A stretch of 64,000 nt of DNA, taken from positions 558,001 through 622,000 of the forward strand of contig JCKJ01000001.1 in assembly GCA_000525025.1 (NCBI GenBank). The letters are read 5' to 3'. The notes under the pieces were generated by a model. It ran no database searches, was not told the origin of the DNA, and was given only the letters and a program-made list of their open reading frames with translations. Below, piece by piece: positions 7,579 through 19,027 of this stretch. The position numbers were made by a program, and so were the translations under genes. Source of the DNA: Methylophilaceae bacterium 11. Its GTDB lineage: Bacteria > Pseudomonadota > Gammaproteobacteria > Burkholderiales > Methylophilaceae. The first letter of the stretch is position 1, and every line of letters starts with the position of its first letter.

Positions 7579-8943
7579 ATGTTAGAAAACTTAACGGGTC
7601 GTCTTCAGGGTGTGATTAAAAACCTGCGTGGTCAAGCGCGCTTAACCGAAGAAAATATCGCGGATGCGATGCGCGAAGTACGCATGGCCTTGTTAGAGGC
7701 AGACGTCGCGTTGCCCGTGGTGAAAGATTTTGTTGCCAAAGTGAAAGCGCGTGCGCAAGGGCGTGAGGTATTGCAAAGCTTGACACCTGGTCAAGCGGTG
7801 ATTGAGGTGGTGAACGAAGAGCTGACCGAGTTGATGGGCAAAGCCAATACGCCGCTCAATTTATCTGCGGTGCCGCCGGTGATTATTTTAATGGCGGGCT
7901 TACAGGGCTCCGGTAAAACCACTACATCTGCCAAACTGGCTAAATTGCTGAAAGAGCAGAAAAAGAAAGTGCTGCTGGCCAGTGCCGACGTCTATCGTCC
8001 CGCAGCCATCACCCAACTACAAACGCTTGCCAAACAATTAGAAGTAGATTGCTTTGACAGCAATGCGCAGCAGAAACCGAGTGAGATTGCAGCGCAGACA
8101 CTAGAGTACGCCAAAAAGAACTACTACGAAGTCGTCATTTTTGATACGGCAGGCCGATTGGGTATTGATGAAGTCATGATGGCGGAAATCAAAGCCTTAC
8201 ATTCACAACTGAATCCAACAGAGACTTTGTTTGTGGTCGATGCGATGCAGGGACAAGACGCCATCAACACTGCCAAAGCCTTTGGCGAAACCTTACCGTT
8301 GACCGGTGTGGTGCTGACCAAACTGGATGGTGATGCACGCGGTGGTGCTGCATTGTCCGTACGTCACGTGACGGGCAAGCCGATTAAGTTTATTGGCGTC
8401 AGTGAAAAGGTCGATGGGCTAGAGCCATTCCATCCCGAACGTATGGCGGGGCGTATCTTGGGTATGGGTGACGTGCTTGGGCTAATTGAGCAAGCACATA
8501 AAAATGTGGACATGGCCGAGGCGCAAAAAGTCGCCGATAAGATTAAGTCCGGCAGTAAGTTTGATTTAGAAGACTTTAAAAGTCAGATGATGCAAATGCG
8601 TAAGATGGGCGGCATGGGTGCGTTGATGGATAAGATGCCAGCGCAATTAGCAGGCATGGCACAAAAAGTGAATAACGAAGATGCGGATAAGTCTTTGCGT
8701 CGTATAGAAGGTATTATTAATAGCATGACGCCGTTGGAGCGTCGCAAGCCGGAGCTGATTAAGGCCACGCGCAAAAAGCGCATTGCAGCCGGTAGCGGTG
8801 TGCAAGTGCAAGAAGTGAACCGTTTGTTGAACCAGTTTGAAGAAACGCAAAAAATGATGAAGATGTTCAGCAAAGGTGGCATGGCAAAAATGATGCGTGG
8901 CATGGGCGGATTGATGGGCGGCAAGTTCCCGGGGATGCGCTAA
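7579..8943 (+). CDS. ffh: Signal recognition particle protein Ffh
   Basis: GTPase that binds signal sequences of inner-membrane proteins together with 4.5S RNA and delivers them to FtsY. The N domain comes first, then the NG GTPase: P-loop GLQGSGKT at 107-114, DTAGRL, and TKLDGDARGG. The C-terminal third is the methionine-rich M domain (MMQMRKMGGMGALMDKM and a Met/Gly tail GGMAKMMRGMGG), with the RNA-binding GSG loop. 454 residues, as in E. coli (453). It is divergent from the YpjD-type gene. Confidence 0.98.
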   Translation: MLENLTGRLQGVIKNLRGQARLTEENIADAMREVRMALLEADVALPVVKDFVAKVKARAQGREVLQSLTPGQAVIEVVNEELTELMGKANTPLNLSAVPPVIILMAGLQGSGKTTTSAKLAKLLKEQKKKVLLASADVYRPAAITQLQTLAKQLEVDCFDSNAQQKPSEIAAQTLEYAKKNYYEVVIFDTAGRLGIDEVMMAEIKALHSQLNPTETLFVVDAMQGQDAINTAKAFGETLPLTGVVLTKLDGDARGGAALSVRHVTGKPIKFIGVSEKVDGLEPFHPERMAGRILGMGDVLGLIEQAHKNVDMAEAQKVADKIKSGSKFDLEDFKSQMMQMRKMGGMGALMDKMPAQLAGMAQKVNNEDADKSLRRIEGIINSMTPLERRKPELIKATRKKRIAAGSGVQVQEVNRLLNQFEETQKMMKMFSKGGMAKMMRGMGGLMGGKFPGMR

Positions 8944-9030
8944 TGCCATTTCTAGCGCGTGCAGAATTTCTGCAAATATTAAAAAATATACGATTTACAC
9001 AGAAAATGTGACAAAAAGCGAAAACAGCCA

Positions 9031-9059
9031 TTGACCAGGTAGCCTCTTTAACGCATAAT
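9031..9059 (+). promoter_or_regulatory. Sigma-70 promoter of tRNA-Lys
   Basis: TTGACC at 9031-9036, a 17-bp spacer and CATAAT at 9054-9059, placing the start near 9066 and about 40 bases before the mature tRNA. Strong consensus match by eye. Confidence 0.65.
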
Positions 9060-9107
9060 CGCGGTCTTGCATTTTTGGGCAACAACTCAAAAGCAAAGTA
9101 CCAAAAT

Positions 9108-9183
9108 GGGGTGTTAGCTCAGCTGGTAGAGCAGCGGACTTTTAATCCGTTTGTCGTGGGTTCGATCCCCGCACACCCTACCA
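9108..9183 (+). tRNA. tRNA-Lys (anticodon TTT), CCA encoded
   Basis: A 76-nt cloverleaf. Acceptor GGGGTGT pairs with ACACCCT, the D stem is GCTC/GAGC, the anticodon arm is GCGGA-CTTTTAA-TCCGT, the T arm is GTGGG-TTCGATC-CCCGC, then discriminator A and encoded CCA. The first acceptor pair is G1-U72, a wobble; E. coli tRNA-Lys has G-C there. The last 12 nt (9172-9183) plus the following terminator are repeated exactly at 14861-14915, so this tRNA forms one edge of a cassette carrying fecI-fecR and a TonB receptor. Confidence 0.96.
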
Positions 9184-9226
9184 AAATTTAAACGGGTTCC
9201 AGTAATGGAACCCGTTTTTCATTTCT
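9172..9226. repeat. 55-bp direct repeat, tRNA-proximal copy (att-like)
   Basis: Fifty-five bases identical to 14861-14915. They span the last 12 nt of tRNA-Lys including CCA, an AT-rich linker, the tRNA terminator hairpin and TTTCATTTCT. The flanking bases differ (G/T on the left, G/A on the right), so 55 bp is the full extent. Its position at a tRNA 3' end is typical of integrase attachment sites. Confidence 0.95.
9191..9219 (+). terminator. Rho-independent terminator after tRNA-Lys
   Basis: Perfect 11-bp stem AACGGGTTCCA (9191-9201) / TGGAACCCGTT (9206-9216) with a GTAA loop, followed by TTTTT. It lies inside the 55-bp repeat. Confidence 0.9.
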
Positions 9227-9282
9227 GATGAATGCTACTTGATTGTAGTTCGCAAGCTTTTGAATCTAGCTGTATATATAAA

Positions 9283-9349
9283 TGGCCAAAAAGTCAGTCA
9301 ATAGCCAATAAATGGCTGAAATAAACCAGCCTTGGCTAAAGTCAGCCAA
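9283..9349. promoter_or_regulatory. Cluster of AGCCA/TGGCT dyads upstream of fecI (possible enhancer sites)
   Basis: Six short elements: TGGCCA (9283), AGCCAA (9303), TGGCTGA (9313), AGCC (9328), TTGGCT (9332) and TCAGCCA (9342). They form overlapping inverted repeats, for example AGCCA-N5-TGGCT at 9303-9317, AGCC-TT-GGCT at 9328-9337, and TGGCTGA-N22-TCAGCCA. They lie about 75-140 bp before the predicted sigma-54 start, the usual place for enhancer-binding-protein sites. The binding protein is unknown. Confidence 0.45.
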
Positions 9350-9398
9350 TTGAAAATAGTGGATGTATAAAAATCAAGTGATTATACGCATCTAGGGT

Positions 9399-9414
9399 TG
9401 GCACTTTAATTGCA
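9399..9414 (+). promoter_or_regulatory. Sigma-54 (RpoN) promoter of fecI
   Basis: TGGCAC-TTTAA-TTGCA: an exact match to the -24/-12 consensus TGGCAC-N5-TTGCA, with GG (9400-9401) and GC (9412-9413) ten bases apart. Transcription would start at about 9424-9425, directly at the fecI ATG (9426). Confidence 0.75.
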
Positions 9415-9425
9415 GTTATTCAAGT

Positions 9426-9929
9426 ATGGATAACAAGTTATATTGGTGCGGTGTGGATTTGCTATGGGCATATAAAACGCTATTGCCCAGTATCGCCAGA
9501 AAAACGCAATGCAAGCATCATGCAAAAGATATACTACATGACGGTTTTTTGTGTTTTGCTTTATCCAGCAACCCTAGCCGATTGCAAGAGCCGCACGCAT
9601 ACTTACGCACAATCGTTCAGCATTTGGTGGTTGAAAAGTACCGTAAAGACACACGCTCACAAAATTATTTAGATTCTATCGAGTTTGAAGAGGCGAGTGT
9701 TCCATCTCCAGAGCACTTGGCGGATATAAAACAGCGACTCATGTTGTTAAACCAAATTATTCAAGATCTTCCACCGCGCTGTCGTGAAGCATTTATTCTT
9801 TTTAAAATCGAAGGTCTCAGTCAAAAGCAGATTGCAGTCAATCTTGGTATCAGTTTGAATATGGTAGAGCGTCATCTTATTCGTGCTTTATTAGATATTC
9901 GCTCTGCTAGAGAGCAATTGCTTAGCTGA
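9426..9929 (+). CDS. fecI: FecI-like ECF sigma factor
   Basis: A 167-residue sigma-70 family protein: region 2 (AKDILHDGF ... LRTIVQHLVVEKYRKD) and region 4 helix-turn-helix (LPPRCREAFILFKIEGLSQKQIA, NLGISLNMVERHL). With fecR and a receptor bearing an N-terminal signalling domain, it should transcribe the receptor gene when the ligand binds at the cell surface. The sigma-54 promoter start coincides with ATG 9426, so translation would be leaderless or begin at an in-frame GTG (9453) or TTG (9459), which still precede region 2. The stop overlaps the fecR start by one base (TGATG). Region 2 is divergent, with few of the usual acidic residues. Confidence 0.85.
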   Translation: MDNKLYWCGVDLLWAYKTLLPSIARKTQCKHHAKDILHDGFLCFALSSNPSRLQEPHAYLRTIVQHLVVEKYRKDTRSQNYLDSIEFEEASVPSPEHLADIKQRLMLLNQIIQDLPPRCREAFILFKIEGLSQKQIAVNLGISLNMVERHLIRALLDIRSAREQLLS

Positions 9930-10903
9930 TGAGTAAGCAAACTAAATTAAGAACAACAGCTGCGCGTTGGTTTATTCGTATGCAAGAGGCAGAGCCAGAT
10001 GCCCCCGAGCGCACACAGTTTGAAGCTTGGCTGCTACAAAGTCCGTTGCATCAACAAGAGTACGCAAGCTTCAGCCAAAGTTGGGATGATATAGACTCAA
10101 TTGCAGAACTAAAGGCAATGGTGCATGCTAAAGAGGTGGCCCATTTTATTGGTAAAGATAAACGCGTAAAAAAAGTCAAAAATGCGGCAGCCGTACTCGG
10201 TACTTGTTTAGTGATGCTTGTGGGGGGGGTGGTCGGTCAGCAGCAATATAAAGAATGGCAAACTTCTCCCACTCTGCAGCTTGCAGCACAAACCATTGCA
10301 TCGCAACTTACCACCAAAACTTTTGAGGATGGAACACAGGTAACCCTTAATGCAAGTAGCAGTATGGATGTAGCCTATTATCGCCATCAACGCCATGTGC
10401 AGTTAAATCAAGGAGAAGCCATCTTTGAGGTAACAAAAGATACCCAGCGACCATTTATTGTTGAAACGGATACGGCCAAAATAACAGTGCTGGGCACTCG
10501 TTTTGCTGTAAACAAACTAGATAACTTTGTGCGCGTCAGCGTGGATCATGGTCAAGTGCGCGTGGAATCTAAAGATTCGCTAAGCACGGTTTTGCTTGGC
10601 AATGGGCAGGTTGCCGAGGTACCAAAACATCAACCTATTCAGCGTATGAATACACAAGCAAATGATTATTTTAAATTTGTAGATGGCTTAATTGTGTTTA
10701 ATCAATCAAATATATATGAGATTGCAGAAGTGCTCTCTCGATATCGCGCAACGAAGGTCATTGCGCAAGGCGCGCCCCATGAAAAGATCAGTGCAATTAT
10801 AGAAGTTAAAGATACGGAAGTGTTTATAGATACGCTCCCAAAAATTGCCAACGTTAAAGTGGTGAATGCTGCAACGCAACGCGTTATTCAAGCAAAGGAA
10901 TAA
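9929..10903 (+). CDS. fecR: FecR-type anti-sigma regulator
   Basis: Inner-membrane protein of 324 residues that passes the receptor signal to FecI. The N-terminal cytosolic DUF4880-like helix region has AARWFIRMQEAEPDAPERTQFEAWL. One membrane segment follows (AAVLGTCLVMLVGGVVGQ, around residues 88-106), then a periplasmic FecR domain (TFEDGTQVTLNASS, VLGTRFAVN, VDHGQVRVES) and a C-terminal STN-like module. The membrane segment is encoded across an eight-G tract (10222-10229), a possible slippage site that would truncate the protein and release or inactivate the sigma factor. It is translationally coupled to fecI. Confidence 0.88.
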   Translation: MSKQTKLRTTAARWFIRMQEAEPDAPERTQFEAWLLQSPLHQQEYASFSQSWDDIDSIAELKAMVHAKEVAHFIGKDKRVKKVKNAAAVLGTCLVMLVGGVVGQQQYKEWQTSPTLQLAAQTIASQLTTKTFEDGTQVTLNASSSMDVAYYRHQRHVQLNQGEAIFEVTKDTQRPFIVETDTAKITVLGTRFAVNKLDNFVRVSVDHGQVRVESKDSLSTVLLGNGQVAEVPKHQPIQRMNTQANDYFKFVDGLIVFNQSNIYEIAEVLSRYRATKVIAQGAPHEKISAIIEVKDTEVFIDTLPKIANVKVVNAATQRVIQAKE

Positions 10904-10990
10904 TATTTAAAATTTTTTGATACCAATATCAGGGTTTTGCATTTTCAAACATCAAGCCAATAAGAACCGATTTTTCTGAAAGGCAATTCC

Positions 10991-13900
10991 TTGAAATCTA
11001 CTCGCCCAACTGTGCGTGCAATCGTAGCTATCGCCAGTATTAGCACTGCTGGTTTTACGCTCTCTATCGCAAATGCCGCAACGCTAAATACAAAACTCCC
11101 CAGCGAGTCTCAAGCGATATTAAATTTACCGGTTACGGTTAATCAACCTAGTCAGCCCTTAGCCTCAGCGCTCAAAGTATTGAGTGCCACCATGGGGGTG
11201 AATATCACGTTTAATGACGCTTTGACCTCTGGTAAAAATGCACCAGCCATCAAGGGAGTCATGACTAGAAAAGAGGCGCTGCAAAAGCTACTGGGTAACT
11301 CTGGGCTAGAGGCAAAACTCAACGAAACCACTATTTATATTCAGCAAGTAGCAGATACTGCAGATAAAACACTTCAGCTTGATCAAATCAGTGTCCGTGC
11401 TAAACGCTCTTATGACATTGGGCCAATGCCAGGCTTAGGTCTCACCAAAGAGGAAATTCCAGGCAATGTGCAAAGTATTACTGCCAAAGAAATTAAAGAG
11501 TCGCATGCGCTTAGCTTAACCGATTTGATGAACAGCAAGCTGCAATCGGTGACGGTGAATGATTATCAAAGTAATCCTTTTCAGATGGATCTGCAATATC
11601 GTGGTTTCACCGCATCACCTCAGCTAGGTACAGCACAAGGTATCTCGGTGTTTTTAGATGGGATTCGTGTGAATGAACCATTTGGTGATGTGGTGAACTG
11701 GGACATGTTGCCGCTCAATGCGTTAAGTGGTCTGGATATCTTTCCTGGCTCTAATCCAATCTTTGGCTTAGGCACGTTAGGTGGAGCCTTGGCTATGCGT
11801 ACTAAGAGTGGTTTTGATGGTCAATCATTAGATGCTGAAGTACTGACCGGATCATTTGGTCGTAAGCAATTGCAACTATCTGCAGGTGGTAATAACGGTG
11901 TGATTGCAGGCTTTGTCTCAGGCAATTTCTTTATGGAAGATGGTTGGCGAGACAACTCACCTAGTAAGGTCAATCAACTATTCGGAAAGGCAGAATGGCA
12001 AAATGAACGGGCACGCATGGGGCTTTCCATGTTGTATGCAGGCAATAAGCTAACAGGTAATGGCTTGCTGCCAGAGCAAATGGTGGATCAAAGCCCTAAG
12101 CAAGTCTATACCTCACCAGACAAGAGCAAGAATGATCTTTTGCAGTTTCAGTTGAGTGGTGTTTGGGATGTAACCGACACATTCAATATCACTGGCCAGA
12201 TTTATAACCGCAAGAGTAAGCGCAAAACAAAAACGACGGATGTGAACGAAAATTTTTCTGGCTACTACACGCCGAATGCTCAAGGTCGGCAAGTGCTATA
12301 TGGGTATTCAGATATCAATAACGATGGGCTACCCGACTACAACACCTATGCGCTGAATGTTGCTGCGGATGCCAATGGCTTTGCATTAGATATTAATGGC
12401 AATCCAGCGCAAGTAGATGATGGGTCTGGCAACTTTATCCCCAATGCTGCATTTGATGTCAACAACCTTGCAATTGGTACTAACTTTGACACACCTGTTG
12501 CAGGGGTGGGGCAGGCCACTATTCCGCGTAATGATGGGTTAGCTGGGCCAGATGTACCTAGATGGACCGCTGACCCGAGGATGATCGATAACAACGTGAT
12601 CTATAACTTTACAACGCCAGCAACTATATTAGGTTTGGGTCAATTTAATAATCCATTACCTACAGCGTTTTATCAGCTCGCACTCAATTATTTTCAAAAT
12701 CAGGCTGCAAATGCAGGTGTGGCAAGTGCAGGTCAAGGCGGTGGTGCTTTTGCTGGGACCAATGAGTTTGGCGGACCTGTCATTGCTAAATATTACTTAG
12801 CTGCGTATGCAGAGTTTCAGGGATTTGATATCGATAACAGCTATGTGGATGACAACGGCTTTTTTAATCGGTTGATTATCCTTGACCCGGTTAATTTGGC
12901 TTTACGTGACCCTGATGTGTATGTTGGAGGCTGTGATGGAACGCTGTTGGGTGTTTGTGCATATGATGCAAACGGATATCAGATAAACAGGGATGGTGCC
13001 TATGGAGGCATGGATTCCCAGACCGGTCTAGGTACCGGTACGGGTGTCATAGACGGTACACCCACCGCCATTATCAGTGAAACCGAAGTAGATCAACTGG
13101 GCAAAGGTGCGGCGGTGCAGTTCAACTGGAATTTGGATAAGCACAAGTTTATGTTAGGCACTTCTGTTGATATGGCCGATGCCGGCTATACCAGTGGCCA
13201 ATACTTGGGGATGTTAGATGCAAAACGCAATGGCTATGAAGCGCCTAATGAATTGGGCTATGAATTTTATGCCAGAGATGCAGCACATGCTTTACGTTTA
13301 AATGATTTTAGTGGTGACTCTATCACCAAGAGCATCTACGCCAGCGAAACTTGGAAGCCGATTGAAACCTTAAGTGTTACGGCCGCGGCACGCTTTAACT
13401 GGACTAACGTAAAAAACAGCCTGGATGTGAATAGTATCTCTAAGTTTCTTGAGGCATCTTTAGGTAGTCTACGTAACGAAATTAACCCTTTAGCCTTATG
13501 TCGAGGAGTGGACAATGACGGCGATGGTTTGGTCGATGGGACATTCTGCCCAACAGGTATAGACAGTGGAATTTATCCCTTTGATCCCAATGCTCCATTT
13601 TCTAATTTAGCGCAATTAGAAACAACGCCTACTGAAAAGTTTAAGTACCGCTCGTTCAATCCGTCGTTTGGGGCGACTTGGCAAGCGCGTGAGGATCTGA
13701 ATCTATATGGCAATTGGAGCCGTGGGGCCAGAACACCCACCAATATTGAGTTGGGCTGTGCATACGATGCTACGTTGGTACCCCTACCAGGAACAAGTCC
13801 AGTGATTTATCAAGAGCGTTCTATAGCCGACAGGCGCACTTGTAATTTGCCTACCACTATGTCTGGAGACCCGCATTTAAAACAAGTAAGGTCTACGAGT

Positions 13901-14791
13901 ATGGAGTTTGGTGCACGTGGCACTTGGGGCCCCAATATCGAGTGGAACACCAGTATTTACCGTACCGACTTAACAGATGATATTTACTTTGTCAGCATTG
14001 CAGCTAGCCGCAGCTTTTTTCAAAACATTGGAGATACTAAGCGCCAAGGCTTGGAAATGGGCGTGAAAGGGAAATGGGGTAACGCCAGCTTTGGGGTGAA
14101 CTACGCATTAACGGATGCTACATTTCAATCCAGTTTTGACATGCTTAGCCCCTACAACAGTACAGCGTATAGCGACAATACACAGTCTGGTACTTACGTA
14201 ATAGATGGCAAAGAGGTGAAAGTTAATAACTTTGGCAAAATCAGAGTGAATAAAGGTAGCCGTATGCCAGGGGTGCCATTACATAATCTTAACTTTAACT
14301 TTGGCTACGAGCTAACAAGCAAATGGCATATAGGGCTAAACGCTGTGGTGCACTCCGAAGCCTTTATACGGGGTAATGAGAACAACAAGCACCGTGCGGG
14401 TCCTGCTAGCACCATCCGGACAGATTGCATCATCCCTGATCCTAATAATCCAGGCCCCGGCAACTTTATCTCAACTGTTTGTGATATCCCACGTGCAAAT
14501 TGGCGAGATGGCAAGACTGCGGGTTACACCGTGTTTAATTTACAATCCAGCTACCAGCTATCCCCAGAATGGACCTTGGGTATGCAAATCAATAATTTGT
14601 TTGATAAGGAATATGCATCTGCCGGTCGATTGGGATTGAACGCATTTTCCCCTGGTGTGAATGGCGCTATCGGACCAAGTGGTTTTAACTATAACAGCAG
14701 CGAGTGGCAAGGCACCAGTTTTTTGGGGACAGGTGCACCGAGATCAGCCTTTTTTACGTTGAGTTATCAGTTTAAACCGGATGCATTATAA
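10991..14791 (+). CDS. Large FecA-type TonB-dependent receptor with STN signalling domain
   Basis: An outer-membrane receptor of 1,266 residues, much longer than the usual 700-800. It opens at a TTG with a signal peptide, then an STN domain (LPVTVNQPSQPLASALKVLS, about residues 45-118) that would contact FecR. The plug (EIPGNVQSITAKEI to GTLGGALAMRTKSGF, about 155-275) and a 22-strand barrel follow. The extra length lies in extracellular loops with several cysteine pairs and acidic motifs: DINNDGLPD at 441-449, and C837-RGV-DNDGDGLVD (841-849)-GTF-C853, an EF-hand-like loop flanked by cysteines. The substrate is unknown; iron chelates are the default. In methylotrophs lanthanide or calcium chelates are a speculative alternative. 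It is 87 bp downstream of fecR and ends 69 bp before the distal repeat. Confidence 0.9.
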   Translation: MKSTRPTVRAIVAIASISTAGFTLSIANAATLNTKLPSESQAILNLPVTVNQPSQPLASALKVLSATMGVNITFNDALTSGKNAPAIKGVMTRKEALQKLLGNSGLEAKLNETTIYIQQVADTADKTLQLDQISVRAKRSYDIGPMPGLGLTKEEIPGNVQSITAKEIKESHALSLTDLMNSKLQSVTVNDYQSNPFQMDLQYRGFTASPQLGTAQGISVFLDGIRVNEPFGDVVNWDMLPLNALSGLDIFPGSNPIFGLGTLGGALAMRTKSGFDGQSLDAEVLTGSFGRKQLQLSAGGNNGVIAGFVSGNFFMEDGWRDNSPSKVNQLFGKAEWQNERARMGLSMLYAGNKLTGNGLLPEQMVDQSPKQVYTSPDKSKNDLLQFQLSGVWDVTDTFNITGQIYNRKSKRKTKTTDVNENFSGYYTPNAQGRQVLYGYSDINNDGLPDYNTYALNVAADANGFALDINGNPAQVDDGSGNFIPNAAFDVNNLAIGTNFDTPVAGVGQATIPRNDGLAGPDVPRWTADPRMIDNNVIYNFTTPATILGLGQFNNPLPTAFYQLALNYFQNQAANAGVASAGQGGGAFAGTNEFGGPVIAKYYLAAYAEFQGFDIDNSYVDDNGFFNRLIILDPVNLALRDPDVYVGGCDGTLLGVCAYDANGYQINRDGAYGGMDSQTGLGTGTGVIDGTPTAIISETEVDQLGKGAAVQFNWNLDKHKFMLGTSVDMADAGYTSGQYLGMLDAKRNGYEAPNELGYEFYARDAAHALRLNDFSGDSITKSIYASETWKPIETLSVTAAARFNWTNVKNSLDVNSISKFLEASLGSLRNEINPLALCRGVDNDGDGLVDGTFCPTGIDSGIYPFDPNAPFSNLAQLETTPTEKFKYRSFNPSFGATWQAREDLNLYGNWSRGARTPTNIELGCAYDATLVPLPGTSPVIYQERSIADRRTCNLPTTMSGDPHLKQVRSTSMEFGARGTWGPNIEWNTSIYRTDLTDDIYFVSIAASRSFFQNIGDTKRQGLEMGVKGKWGNASFGVNYALTDATFQSSFDMLSPYNSTAYSDNTQSGTYVIDGKEVKVNNFGKIRVNKGSRMPGVPLHNLNFNFGYELTSKWHIGLNAVVHSEAFIRGNENNKHRAGPASTIRTDCIIPDPNNPGPGNFISTVCDIPRANWRDGKTAGYTVFNLQSSYQLSPEWTLGMQINNLFDKEYASAGRLGLNAFSPGVNGAIGPSGFNYNSSEWQGTSFLGTGAPRSAFFTLSYQFKPDAL

Positions 14792-14860
14792 TTAAGTTGA
14801 GGGATGGTTTAATGGTGGAAGTGGTGGATGGTTAGTATATTTGTTATGAGTTACCTTCTT

Positions 14861-14915
14861 CACACCCTACCAAAATTTAAACGGGTTCCAGTAATGGAAC
14901 CCGTTTTTCATTTCT
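14861..14915. repeat. 55-bp direct repeat, distal copy (att-like)
   Basis: Perfect copy of 9172-9226: the last 12 nt of tRNA-Lys, linker and terminator. No tRNA body precedes it. It marks the far end of the fecIR-receptor cassette, 13 bp from the stop of the convergent EamA gene. Confidence 0.95.
14880..14908 (+). terminator. Duplicated terminator between the receptor gene and EamA gene
   Basis: Same 11-bp stem and GTAA loop as the tRNA terminator, followed by TTTTT. The opposite strand reads TTAAATTTT after the stem, so it can serve both the receptor gene and the convergent EamA gene. Confidence 0.85.
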
Positions 14916-14928
14916 ACCTAGTCTGGCG

Positions 14929-15861
14929 TTAACTCTCCTGCTGTTCGGTTGGTAGCGTGATAGACAGAACTCCAGCCAATACTAAAGCAGTGCCAATTAT
15001 CTGATTGAAAGTCACGGGCTCACCAAGAAATATAGCAGCCAGTAATATGGTGGAAACCGGTCCTATACTACCAATGAGCGATGCTTTGCTGCTGCCTACT
15101 CTCCGTATGCCAGCATTGAGCAAGATTACTGGAAGTATTGTGGACACAATTGCCATTCCCAGCCCCAATTGATATACACCCATAGGCAGTTTTAACGAGG
15201 CCACCGAATGTGTGAGGGCAAAGTGGGTGACACAGGCAGTGCAAGCAATAATCATCGTATATGCGGTAAATCGCTGCGTGCCAATCTTATGAAGCATGTT
15301 GCTACTTCCTACCAAGTAGCAGGCGTATGTCAATGCACTGAGTAATATAAACCCAGCCCCTAGCAGGGTGGCGCTGGTACTGCTAAATGAAATGTCATGC
15401 ATAGCAATCAAGATGATTCCAGCGTAGCTTAGCGCTAGCGCCAATATTTCGCGTTTACCTATGGGTTTCTTCGCCAGTAGCGCAGTAATGATGACGACAA
15501 ATGTGGGATAAAGGAAAAGGATGGTGCGCTCTGTGCCAGCGGATACGTAGCTTAAGCCAATGAAATCGAACAGGGATGATAAGTACATTCCGCCTAAGCC
15601 CAATACAAACAGGGAACCCCAGTCATTCATGCTCAAGCGTGAGGAGGAGGTATTGTTTTTAGTTGCAATCACTGCCATCACTATAAAAAATGGTGTCGCA
15701 AGTAACATTCTTAATGCGAGCAAGGTGACGGCATCTACGGGATATTGGTAAGCCAGTTTGATAAAAATTGCTTTGGCAGAAAATGCAATTGCCGAGATGA
15801 ATACGAAGGAAGCGCCTATGAGTGCCTGATTATTTTTTGACGTGATGGTGTTGTTGTGCAT
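14929..15861 (-). CDS. EamA-family (DMT) transporter
   Basis: A ten-TM protein of 310 residues with two EamA halves (ALIGASFVFISAIAFSAKAIF; GLGMAIVSTILPVILLNAGI, then SLIGSIGPVSTILLAAIFLGE). The closest named relatives are general small-metabolite exporters; no substrate can be read from the sequence. ATG 15861 is preferred over 15885 because AAGAAAGGG lies six to eight bases before it. It is preceded by a consensus promoter and a 30-codon ORF ending in NNCCFS. It lies just outside the distal 55-bp repeat and is therefore probably ancestral to this locus. Confidence 0.85.
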   Translation of the reverse strand: MHNNTITSKNNQALIGASFVFISAIAFSAKAIFIKLAYQYPVDAVTLLALRMLLATPFFIVMAVIATKNNTSSSRLSMNDWGSLFVLGLGGMYLSSLFDFIGLSYVSAGTERTILFLYPTFVVIITALLAKKPIGKREILALALSYAGIILIAMHDISFSSTSATLLGAGFILLSALTYACYLVGSSNMLHKIGTQRFTAYTMIIACTACVTHFALTHSVASLKLPMGVYQLGLGMAIVSTILPVILLNAGIRRVGSSKASLIGSIGPVSTILLAAIFLGEPVTFNQIIGTALVLAGVLSITLPTEQQES

Positions 15862-15908
15862 GTAGCCCTTTCTTTTGCGGGCCATCTCTGCAGAGGTCTT
15901 GTGTTCAC

Positions 15909-15932
15909 CAACCGCGGAGAGGCTCGCGGTTG
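15909..15932. promoter_or_regulatory. 8-bp stem-loop in the leader of the EamA gene
   Basis: CAACCGCG (15909-15916) pairs with CGCGGTTG (15925-15932) around an 8-nt loop, between the small leader ORF and the EamA start on the minus strand. No T-run follows on either strand, so it is not an obvious terminator; it could affect translation. The remaining gap to rplU shows only the promoters listed. Confidence 0.4.
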
Positions 15933-15945
15933 CTTGTTTAAAATA

Positions 15946-16038
15946 CTAAGAAAAACAGCAGTTGTTGCGAGCGGAAACGGCCAGTAGCCATAGGGCCTGA
16001 CGATATTGTTTGCTGACGACTTGAGTGCTGATAAACAT
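15946..16038 (-). CDS. Possible 30-codon leader ORF upstream of the EamA gene
   Basis: ATG at 16038 to TAG at 15946 gives a 30-residue peptide with WLLA in the middle and tandem Cys codons (tgc tgt) near the end (NNCCFS). It begins about a dozen bases after the -10 of a strong minus-strand promoter and ends 85 bp before the transporter gene. It might be an amino-acid-sensing leader, as seen for cysteine-related genes in some betaproteobacteria, but there is no clear Shine-Dalgarno and it could be chance. Confidence 0.25.
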   Translation of the reverse strand: MFISTQVVSKQYRQALWLLAVSARNNCCFS

Positions 16039-16045
16039 GCCAATA

Positions 16046-16073
16046 ATTCTACCTTTAAATGCTAGAGTGTCAA
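16046..16073 (-). promoter_or_regulatory. Sigma-70 promoter of the EamA gene
   Basis: On the minus strand TTGACA (16073-16068), a 16-bp spacer and TAGAAT (16051-16046). It reads toward the leader ORF and the EamA transporter. Confidence 0.6.
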
Positions 16074-16129
16074 ACTGTAGATGTCAGCAAACAAGCCGTA
16101 AAATAATGTGCTAAAAATGCAATTGAGAT

Positions 16130-16157
16130 TTGCATTCTGTAGTGAATTGCGTATAAT
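16130..16157 (+). promoter_or_regulatory. Sigma-70 promoter of rplU-rpmA
   Basis: TTGCAT at 16130-16135, 16-bp spacer, exact TATAAT at 16152-16157. The start would lie about 30 bases before rplU. Confidence 0.75.
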
Positions 16158-16194
16158 GCCCAGTTCTCTAAAAGATGATGTTTAAGGCTTTATT

Positions 16195-16509
16195 ATGTAC
16201 GCAGTAATTAAAACAGGCGGCAAGCAATACAAAGTGGCTGCTGGTGACAAGCTAAAAGTTGAAAAATTAGTGGGTGACGTGGGTAGCAAAGTAGTCATCG
16301 ACAAAGTGTTGTTGATTGCAGATGGCGAAAAAACCACCATTGGTGCTCCGTTAGTTGCTGGCGCGAAAGTAAACGCAACAGTAGTTTCACACGGCCGTGC
16401 TGATAAAGTGATGATTTTCAAATTCCGTCGTCGTAAACATTATCGTAAAACACAAGGCCATCGCCAAAGTTTTACAGAAATTCAAATTGATACGATTGCT
16501 GCTAAATAA
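16195..16509 (+). CDS. rplU: 50S ribosomal protein L21
   Basis: Full-length L21 (104 residues): [14 protein letters not shown] at the start, then the basic [20 protein letters not shown] segment that contacts 23S rRNA. It is first in rplU-rpmA, with 24 bp between the two genes, the near-universal arrangement. A TATAAT promoter lies just upstream. Confidence 0.98.
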
Positions 16510-16533
16510 GCAGTTTAGAAATAAGGACTCGAC

Positions 16534-16791
16534 ATGGCACACAAAAAAGCAGGCGGTAGTTCACGTAACGGTCGCGACTCACAAGCTAAACGTTTAGGCG
16601 TTAAAGCATTTGGTGAAACAGTAGTTTCTGCAGGTAGCATTATCGTGCGTCAGCGCGGTACAAGAATGCATGCCGGTGAAAACGTAGGCATGGGTAAAGA
16701 CCATACACTTTTCGCAAAAATCGACGGTAAAGTCACTTTTGCAGTAAAAGGCGCGTTAAAACGCCATACTGTTAGTATCGTTGCAGTTTAA
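16534..16791 (+). CDS. rpmA: 50S ribosomal protein L27
   Basis: L27 of 85 residues, starting [20 protein letters not shown], the glycine/lysine-rich tail that reaches the peptidyl-transferase centre. [24 protein letters not shown] is the family core. It is followed by a strong terminator, which separates it from obgE. Confidence 0.98.
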
Positions 16792-16808
16792 GTTTGTTTG
16801 ATTTTGCA

Positions 16809-19027
<2,219 letters not shown>

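Follow-up and report, generated by a model that had tools for sequence, protein, structure and literature searches.

In Methylophilaceae bacterium 11 (strain 11), a methanol-eating bacterium from a lake, an operon encoding a FecI-like sigma factor, a FecR-like regulator and a TonB-dependent receptor stands directly behind tRNA-Lys(TTT), enclosed by two identical 55-bp copies of the tRNA 3' tip and its terminator and unaccompanied by an integrase. That this is a tRNA-site insertion without an integrase, as the earlier note on this DNA had proposed, is well supported, and relatives hold other cargo or a single repeat copy at the same place. Concerning its origin, the reading to which we give about half of our confidence is that the operon is the remnant of a tyrosine-recombinase element in tRNA-Lys, from which the enzyme gene and the inner part of the displaced right-hand fragment were later deleted. 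The features on which the argument rests are listed below by their positions in the window, by which we mean the whole stretch of 64,000 nucleotides that was analysed.

7579-8943, plus strand: ffh (SRP protein), the conserved left neighbour of tRNA-Lys, from same-genus loci
9108-9183, plus strand: intact tRNA-Lys(TTT), with its last 12 nt at 9172-9183
9172-9226, plus strand: left copy of the 55-bp repeat, made up of the final 12 nt of tRNA-Lys, a linker and a terminator hairpin
9190-9217, plus strand: left terminator-like hairpin of 12 pairs, that of tRNA-Lys
9290-9358, no strand: two imperfect 21-nt direct repeats (9290-9310 and 9338-9358, 81% alike), speculatively recombinase arm sites
9426-9929, plus strand: fecI-like ECF sigma factor, from ORF and Pfam scan
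9929-10903, plus strand: fecR-like anti-sigma regulator, from ORF and Pfam scan
10991-14791, plus strand: TonB-dependent receptor of 1266 aa with a TTG start, from ORF and Pfam scan
14792-14860, plus strand: spacer ending at the proposed deletion junction 14860/14861, with relatives searched in 187 family genomes
14861-14915, plus strand: right copy of the 55-bp repeat, matching the left copy
14879-14906, no strand: hairpin of the right copy, the proposed terminator of the operon (plus strand) and of eamA (other strand)
14929-15885, minus strand: EamA-family transporter, a convergent neighbour that seems accessory here, from ORF, Pfam and relatives
16195-16509, plus strand: rplU, the right border of the variable region, from relatives

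The perfect ends claimed in the earlier note were borne out, as positions 9172-9226 and 14861-14915 agree at 55 of 55 nucleotides with zero mismatches and are the sole occurrences of this sequence in the 2.79-Mb genome (2,786,829 in Table 3 of PMC4109929) when up to three mismatches are allowed. By our own arithmetic, the probability of a random identity of 55 nt within 64 kb is negligible (<1e-20). The hairpin of the repeat has 12 pairs followed by a T-rich tail, with a folding energy of -19.5 kcal/mol compared to a mean of -5.8 for shuffled sequences, and it is terminator-like in both copies, including on the opposite strand. Among 187 genomes of the Methylophilaceae family, searched with up to three mismatches, this hairpin is present in one, that of strain 11 itself, and no donor was found in this set. 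A 25-mer of the repeat, used as a probe for a viral attachment site, gave zero matches in viral contigs.

Between the two copies, the only open reading frames of at least 90 aa are the three of the operon, in agreement with the gene content first described. An ECF sigma factor, a FecR domain and a receptor with plug and barrel follow one another in operon-like order, as in FecI-FecR-TonB surface signalling; the STN domain of the receptor scores 26.4 bits, just under the Pfam cut-off of 28.4. Surface-signalling uptake of the FecIRA type is established for the FecI-FecR-receptor family, and by analogy this operon would be such a system, with a chelated metal probably as its substrate. A profile search across positions 8001-17000 of the window yielded no integrase-family open reading frame, consistent with the absence reported at the outset. 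The segment has a GC content of 44.1%, a small difference from the 46.4-46.6% of sampled flanks. The receptor is closest (70-73%) to genes of two metagenome-assembled genomes (MAGs), one labelled Methylotenera and one Pseudomonadota, and strain 11 has two further paralogues of it at 64 and 60%. FecI and FecR are 63 and 55% alike to those of Methylophilus sp. 14, compared to 49 and 42% for the one of the two receptor-bearing MAGs that has both on its contig; as these affinities differ from those of the receptor, the operon has a mixed history. The spacer at 14792-14860 has a full match only to itself, with partial matches of 22-26 nt in seven genomes, and a search with positions 14786-14862 found no relative along the whole length in the 187 family genomes.

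In order to place this locus within the genus, the tRNA-Lys region was collected from 20 of the 21 other genomes; that of G019 is cut at the tRNA, and several of the others are cut by contig ends. The ffh gene lies upstream of tRNA-Lys in 19 of the 20 loci, the exception (G020) starting at the tRNA, and rplU is reached in five of the 20. The tRNA-Lys gene is an insertion hot spot: counting copies that include part of the tRNA and lie downstream of the intact gene within 22 kb, eight of the 21 loci (the window included) hold 14 further Lys 3' copies, with four in G002, two each in G003, G008 and G021, and one each in G007, G011, G012 and the window. This count excludes two copies, in G002 and G007, that hold at most the last two tRNA bases, and it includes a second G003 copy that is 75% alike and 20 kb from its tRNA. 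The loci differ in cargo, which comprises PEP-CTERM proteins, an HNH protein, a hydrolase, a short-chain dehydrogenase with a LysR regulator, and others, with some genes, such as one of 386 aa, recurring between genomes. As in additive islands, the tRNA of the window is intact, its end is repeated on the far side of the insert, and relatives hold different cargo at the same tRNA. In addition, the four genomes nearest by Ffh (G001, G006, G015 and G016, 91-97%) carry four different hairpins behind tRNA-Lys, which is expected if inserts bring their own.

The earlier note had treated the lack of an integrase as unusual, a view that the genus does not uphold. Using a profile built from nine integrases, a tyrosine integrase was found in two of the 14 intervals (G007 and G011), and the other 12, including that of the window, have none. 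The G011 integrase, recognised by family search, lies directly beside tRNA-Lys, with the displaced copy 21.5 kb away. In G027, a genome of another genus, fragments of 88 and 92 aa are what is left of the integrase adjoining tRNA-Lys, so that loss of the enzyme at this site can be seen. The empty site with the EamA gene next to the tRNA, which the earlier note had predicted, is an arrangement seen in no relative. EamA homologues (45-59%) are found in 15 of 21 other genomes, yet the 20 tRNA-Lys regions collected contain none, and eamA therefore looks, by its distribution, to be acquired or accessory at this site as well. Two outcomes that the earlier note had named as contrary to its proposal did not appear: the operon, far from being shared by all relatives, was absent from the sequence collected at the 20 other loci (several contig-cut), and the repeat, far from being scattered, occurs only twice in the genome. 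Distant homologues of fecI and fecR (28-29%) lie 7-9 kb past the tRNA-Lys of G013.

We propose the following sequence of events for the locus. A tyrosine recombinase would have inserted an element into tRNA-Lys, leaving an intact tRNA on the left and the displaced tRNA 3' end with its terminator on the right. A later deletion, its right break at 14860/14861, would then have taken the recombinase gene together with the inner portion of the right fragment, so that the remaining cargo would be one operon that senses and imports a substrate. The left hairpin would still terminate tRNA-Lys, and the right hairpin may terminate both the operon and the convergent eamA.

The right copy has a sharp edge. 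When compared with the intact tRNA-Lys, it agrees at 15 of 29 positions upstream of tRNA position 65 and thereafter at 12 of 12 tRNA positions and 43 of 43 beyond them, whereas 17 other Lys copies, each compared with its own genome's intact gene, keep 22 to 29 of the 29 tRNA-half positions. These 17, from 32 other Lys copies tabulated, are copies with the intact gene in hand (the terminator of one is cut by a contig end), and the set excludes four others that start at position 65 or later. Among the starts of all 33 Lys copies, 23 fall at positions 26-36 and four at 43-51, one is at a contig edge, and five, including the window, are at 65 or later, so that the displaced fragment of the window starts at position 65 rather than at the 26-36 common in relatives. 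The four other late-starting copies are 82-97% alike to the query, and one of them, in G020, starts exactly at 65. Copies of the tip without the tRNA half follow gene ends at distances of 5 bp in G007, 35 bp in G002 and 41 bp in G020. Decay of a full-length right copy was rejected as the main account, given the 15 of 29 positions before and 55 of 55 after position 65 and the better-kept halves elsewhere. Positions 14797-14860 resemble tRNA-Lys weakly (p of 0.04 in one test and 0.07 to 0.23 in the other five), a resemblance that was dismissed as not significant over all six tests; if real, it would argue for decay.

A sharp edge with perfect identity beyond it can be explained by a deletion ending at 14860/14861 or by a recombinase crossing at the tRNA tip. 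We prefer the deletion, as most copies in the genus start at the anticodon loop, as G027 shows an integrase in fragments at its tRNA-Lys, and as tip-only copies occur both at tRNA-Phe and, in relatives, close behind genes. The earlier note had offered three origins, namely a cargo cassette mobilised in trans, a collapsed island and a passenger of homologous recombination; the collapsed island fits best, since the right copy is truncated rather than decayed, and the other two rank lower. Several observations count against a remnant. Neither an integrase trace nor the arm clusters of relatives surround the repeat, and no longer version of the element was found, the sharp edge being the one feature from which the deletion is deduced. 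The perfect identity of the copies moreover requires either a recent insertion or homogenisation.

Further evidence comes from integrases at other tRNA genes. In strain 11, islands of a similar style have integrases related to the G011 enzyme, which adjoin tRNA-Phe (69% alike) and tRNA-Arg (47%), and in relatives the same family adjoins tRNA-Asn, Pro or Arg. Members of the family were recorded at L203 4715-5707, L204 5612-6607, L207, L208, L209, L210, L212 and L043 2841-3857, beside tRNA-Phe, Arg, Asn, Pro or Lys. The displaced Arg copy of strain 11 (86 bp, 96.5%) runs from the anticodon loop and includes the terminator, and the displaced Phe copy (45 bp, 100%) runs from the anticodon loop to the CCA. 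Three further tRNA-Phe matches start at positions 57, 65 and 78, showing that copies consisting of nearly the tip and terminator only exist at a second tRNA of strain 11. At the tRNA-Phe island (L241, G000:C1 about 190795-193527), several graded copies of tRNA-Phe or its terminator lie near the far end.

The main competitor to the collapsed island is a cargo-only cassette that relied for its insertion on a recombinase supplied in trans, one that crosses over close to the tRNA-Lys 3' end; the whole attachment identity would then be the 55 bp, and the cassette may still excise. We consider this unlikely, but a serious contender. The rule of integrase-free intervals at tRNA-Lys (12 of 14) is in its favour, and the sharp edges and identical copies of the window suit it, as does the G020 copy beginning at 65, a start that crossing over close to the tip of the tRNA could equally produce. 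In G013, a unit of 1.4 kb just behind tRNA-Arg(CCG) (L083 10016-11693) has a single PhzF-like gene flanked by two Lys copies; one of its arms is homologous to an arm of the integrase element in G011, and it has the look expected of a unit mobilised in trans. The 386-aa gene, 91-94% alike between genomes, ends in a tail of the Lys type in G002, G008 and G003, where it lies near tRNA-Lys, and in one of the Met type in G013 (L034:11796-12953, L040:7966-9123, and L193 and L194 in reversed loci), so that units seem to change tRNA sites. On the other side, 28 of the 33 Lys copies begin before position 60, and the sole possible arm sites in the window are a weak repeat pair on one side, unlinked to the arm clusters of relatives' copies. 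Strain 11 has no other Lys attachment copy in its genome, and no integrase lies beside tRNA-Lys among seven of the eight listed in strain 11. Its tRNA-Leu integrase locus, a candidate for a recombinase of the 3' end, gave no second tRNA-Leu copy in about 68 kb.

Homologous recombination through short identity is improbable; the donor would have had two copies of the tRNA-Lys end with its terminator, or a single copy if it was circular. The varying cargo at the site and the mixed history of the operon speak for such an exchange, but an identity of 55 bp is short for RecA, as a matter of general knowledge, and the anticodon-loop starts of relatives, some with adjoining integrases, point to site-specific recombination. 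Least probable of all is that, in the absence of any mobile element, the tRNA end and its terminator were copied locally to a place behind the operon and retained there as a terminator, which is in line with the copies lacking a tRNA half just behind genes in G002 and G007 but leaves unexplained why operon and copy lie together at a known hot spot and why a search of the 20 other collected stretches, several of them contig-cut, did not find the operon.

Beyond the window, gene units with tRNA tails recur across the genus. A table of 68 non-intact Lys and Met copies in same-genus stretches, with duplicates dropped and other genera excluded, shows an upstream open reading frame at 66, with 50 of these frames pointing toward the copy. 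With duplicates kept and stretches longer than 6 kb considered, a co-directional frame ends within 45 bp of the copy in 25 of 67 cases, compared to 11.8% of 3651 intergenic positions (binomial p about 7e-8, which is indicative as the copies are not independent). In four genes with PEP-CTERM-like ends (L034 6362 and 8058, plus strand; L052 6294 and L086 10105, in reversed loci), the TAA stop is formed within the anticodon loop of a displaced tRNA-Lys half; a PEP-CTERM Pfam scan of two of the four placed one over and one just under the cut-off. Stacks of copies occur at L045 3990-14319 and L194 (both G013), L034 3142-13081 (G002) and L089 (G007), with Lys-type and Met-type 3' copies on one strand per stretch separating small gene units; downstream of its tRNA-Lys, G013 has seven partial Met-type copies and one that is near-complete. 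The arms beside the copies form two clusters, one of 21 downstream arms (from eight intact tRNA-Lys genes, 12 Lys copies and one Met-type copy) and one of 14 upstream arms that is Met-type only, and the repeat pair of the window falls in neither. The suggestion that Met-type repeats with the conserved upstream arm are dispersed genome-wide was rejected, as 17 of 22 genomes have between 1 and 17 matches each; many matches are near tRNA-Lys, or near intact tRNA-Met in G002, G010 and G013. From the two kinds of tail on the 386-aa gene, units may pass between tRNA sites. A much broader reading, which we regard as doubtful, is that Methylophilus runs an integron-like system on tRNA-Lys and tRNA-Met, in which genes or operons would carry tails of a tRNA 3' half and terminator, insertion would rebuild the tRNA and lend the cargo its terminator, recombinases would act in trans, units would swap sites, and the operon of the window would be a cassette with a shortened tail.

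As a general process, insertion at tRNA genes is known. Additive flexible genomic islands are described in Actinomarinales (PMC7771536) and Alteromonas (PMC5217437), and in the Methylophilaceae, fGI-2 of 'Ca. Methylopumilus' lies at tRNA-Lys(ctt) with a 20-bp repeat and sizes from 330 bp to 42 kb (PMC10872708). Like the window, these islands have variable cargo by one tRNA, a tRNA-Lys in the same family, and repeats of part of that tRNA, whereas the window has tRNA-Lys(TTT), 55 bp that include the terminator, and a single operon. The integrase-bearing tRNA islands of Islander (PMC4383910) likewise have a regenerated tRNA on one side and a displaced fragment on the other, but in the window there is no integrase and the fragment starts 12 nt before the tRNA end. 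Tycheposons (PMC10872708, PMC11389934) also place cargo at tRNA genes, in this family at tRNA-Met, and those of PMC10872708 carry a tyrosine recombinase, where the window has the tRNA without the recombinase. CALINs (PMC11389934) resemble the window, by their description, as integrase-free units possibly moved in trans; they are cassette arrays with attC sites, in contrast to tRNA 3' ends and a single unit. Strains 11 and 1P/1, whose AAI is 98.9, have been reported to hold 19 and 27 islands, the hot spots being associated with tRNA genes and tyrosine recombinases (PMC4109929), and the examined text of that paper, which concerns the same genome as the window, does not mention the fecI-fecR-receptor operon at tRNA-Lys. 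No published account of this operon at tRNA-Lys was found in a search that extended to text passages of PMC4109929 and not to its hot-spot supplement, and none of stacks of genes with tRNA tails in Methylophilus in the literature searched, which is not proof of absence.

As this family is already known to have additive islands in which a tRNA end is repeated, the window represents a further, very small member of the class, without an insertion enzyme. It is a clean tRNA-site insertion of one operon between identical ends, and it points to a genus in which units that lack an integrase and end in a tRNA half with a terminator are stacked at tRNA-Lys and tRNA-Met. These Methylophilus stacks are the more interesting context. 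They make testable both how small integrase-free units spread and whether captured tRNA terminators are of use to cargo genes.
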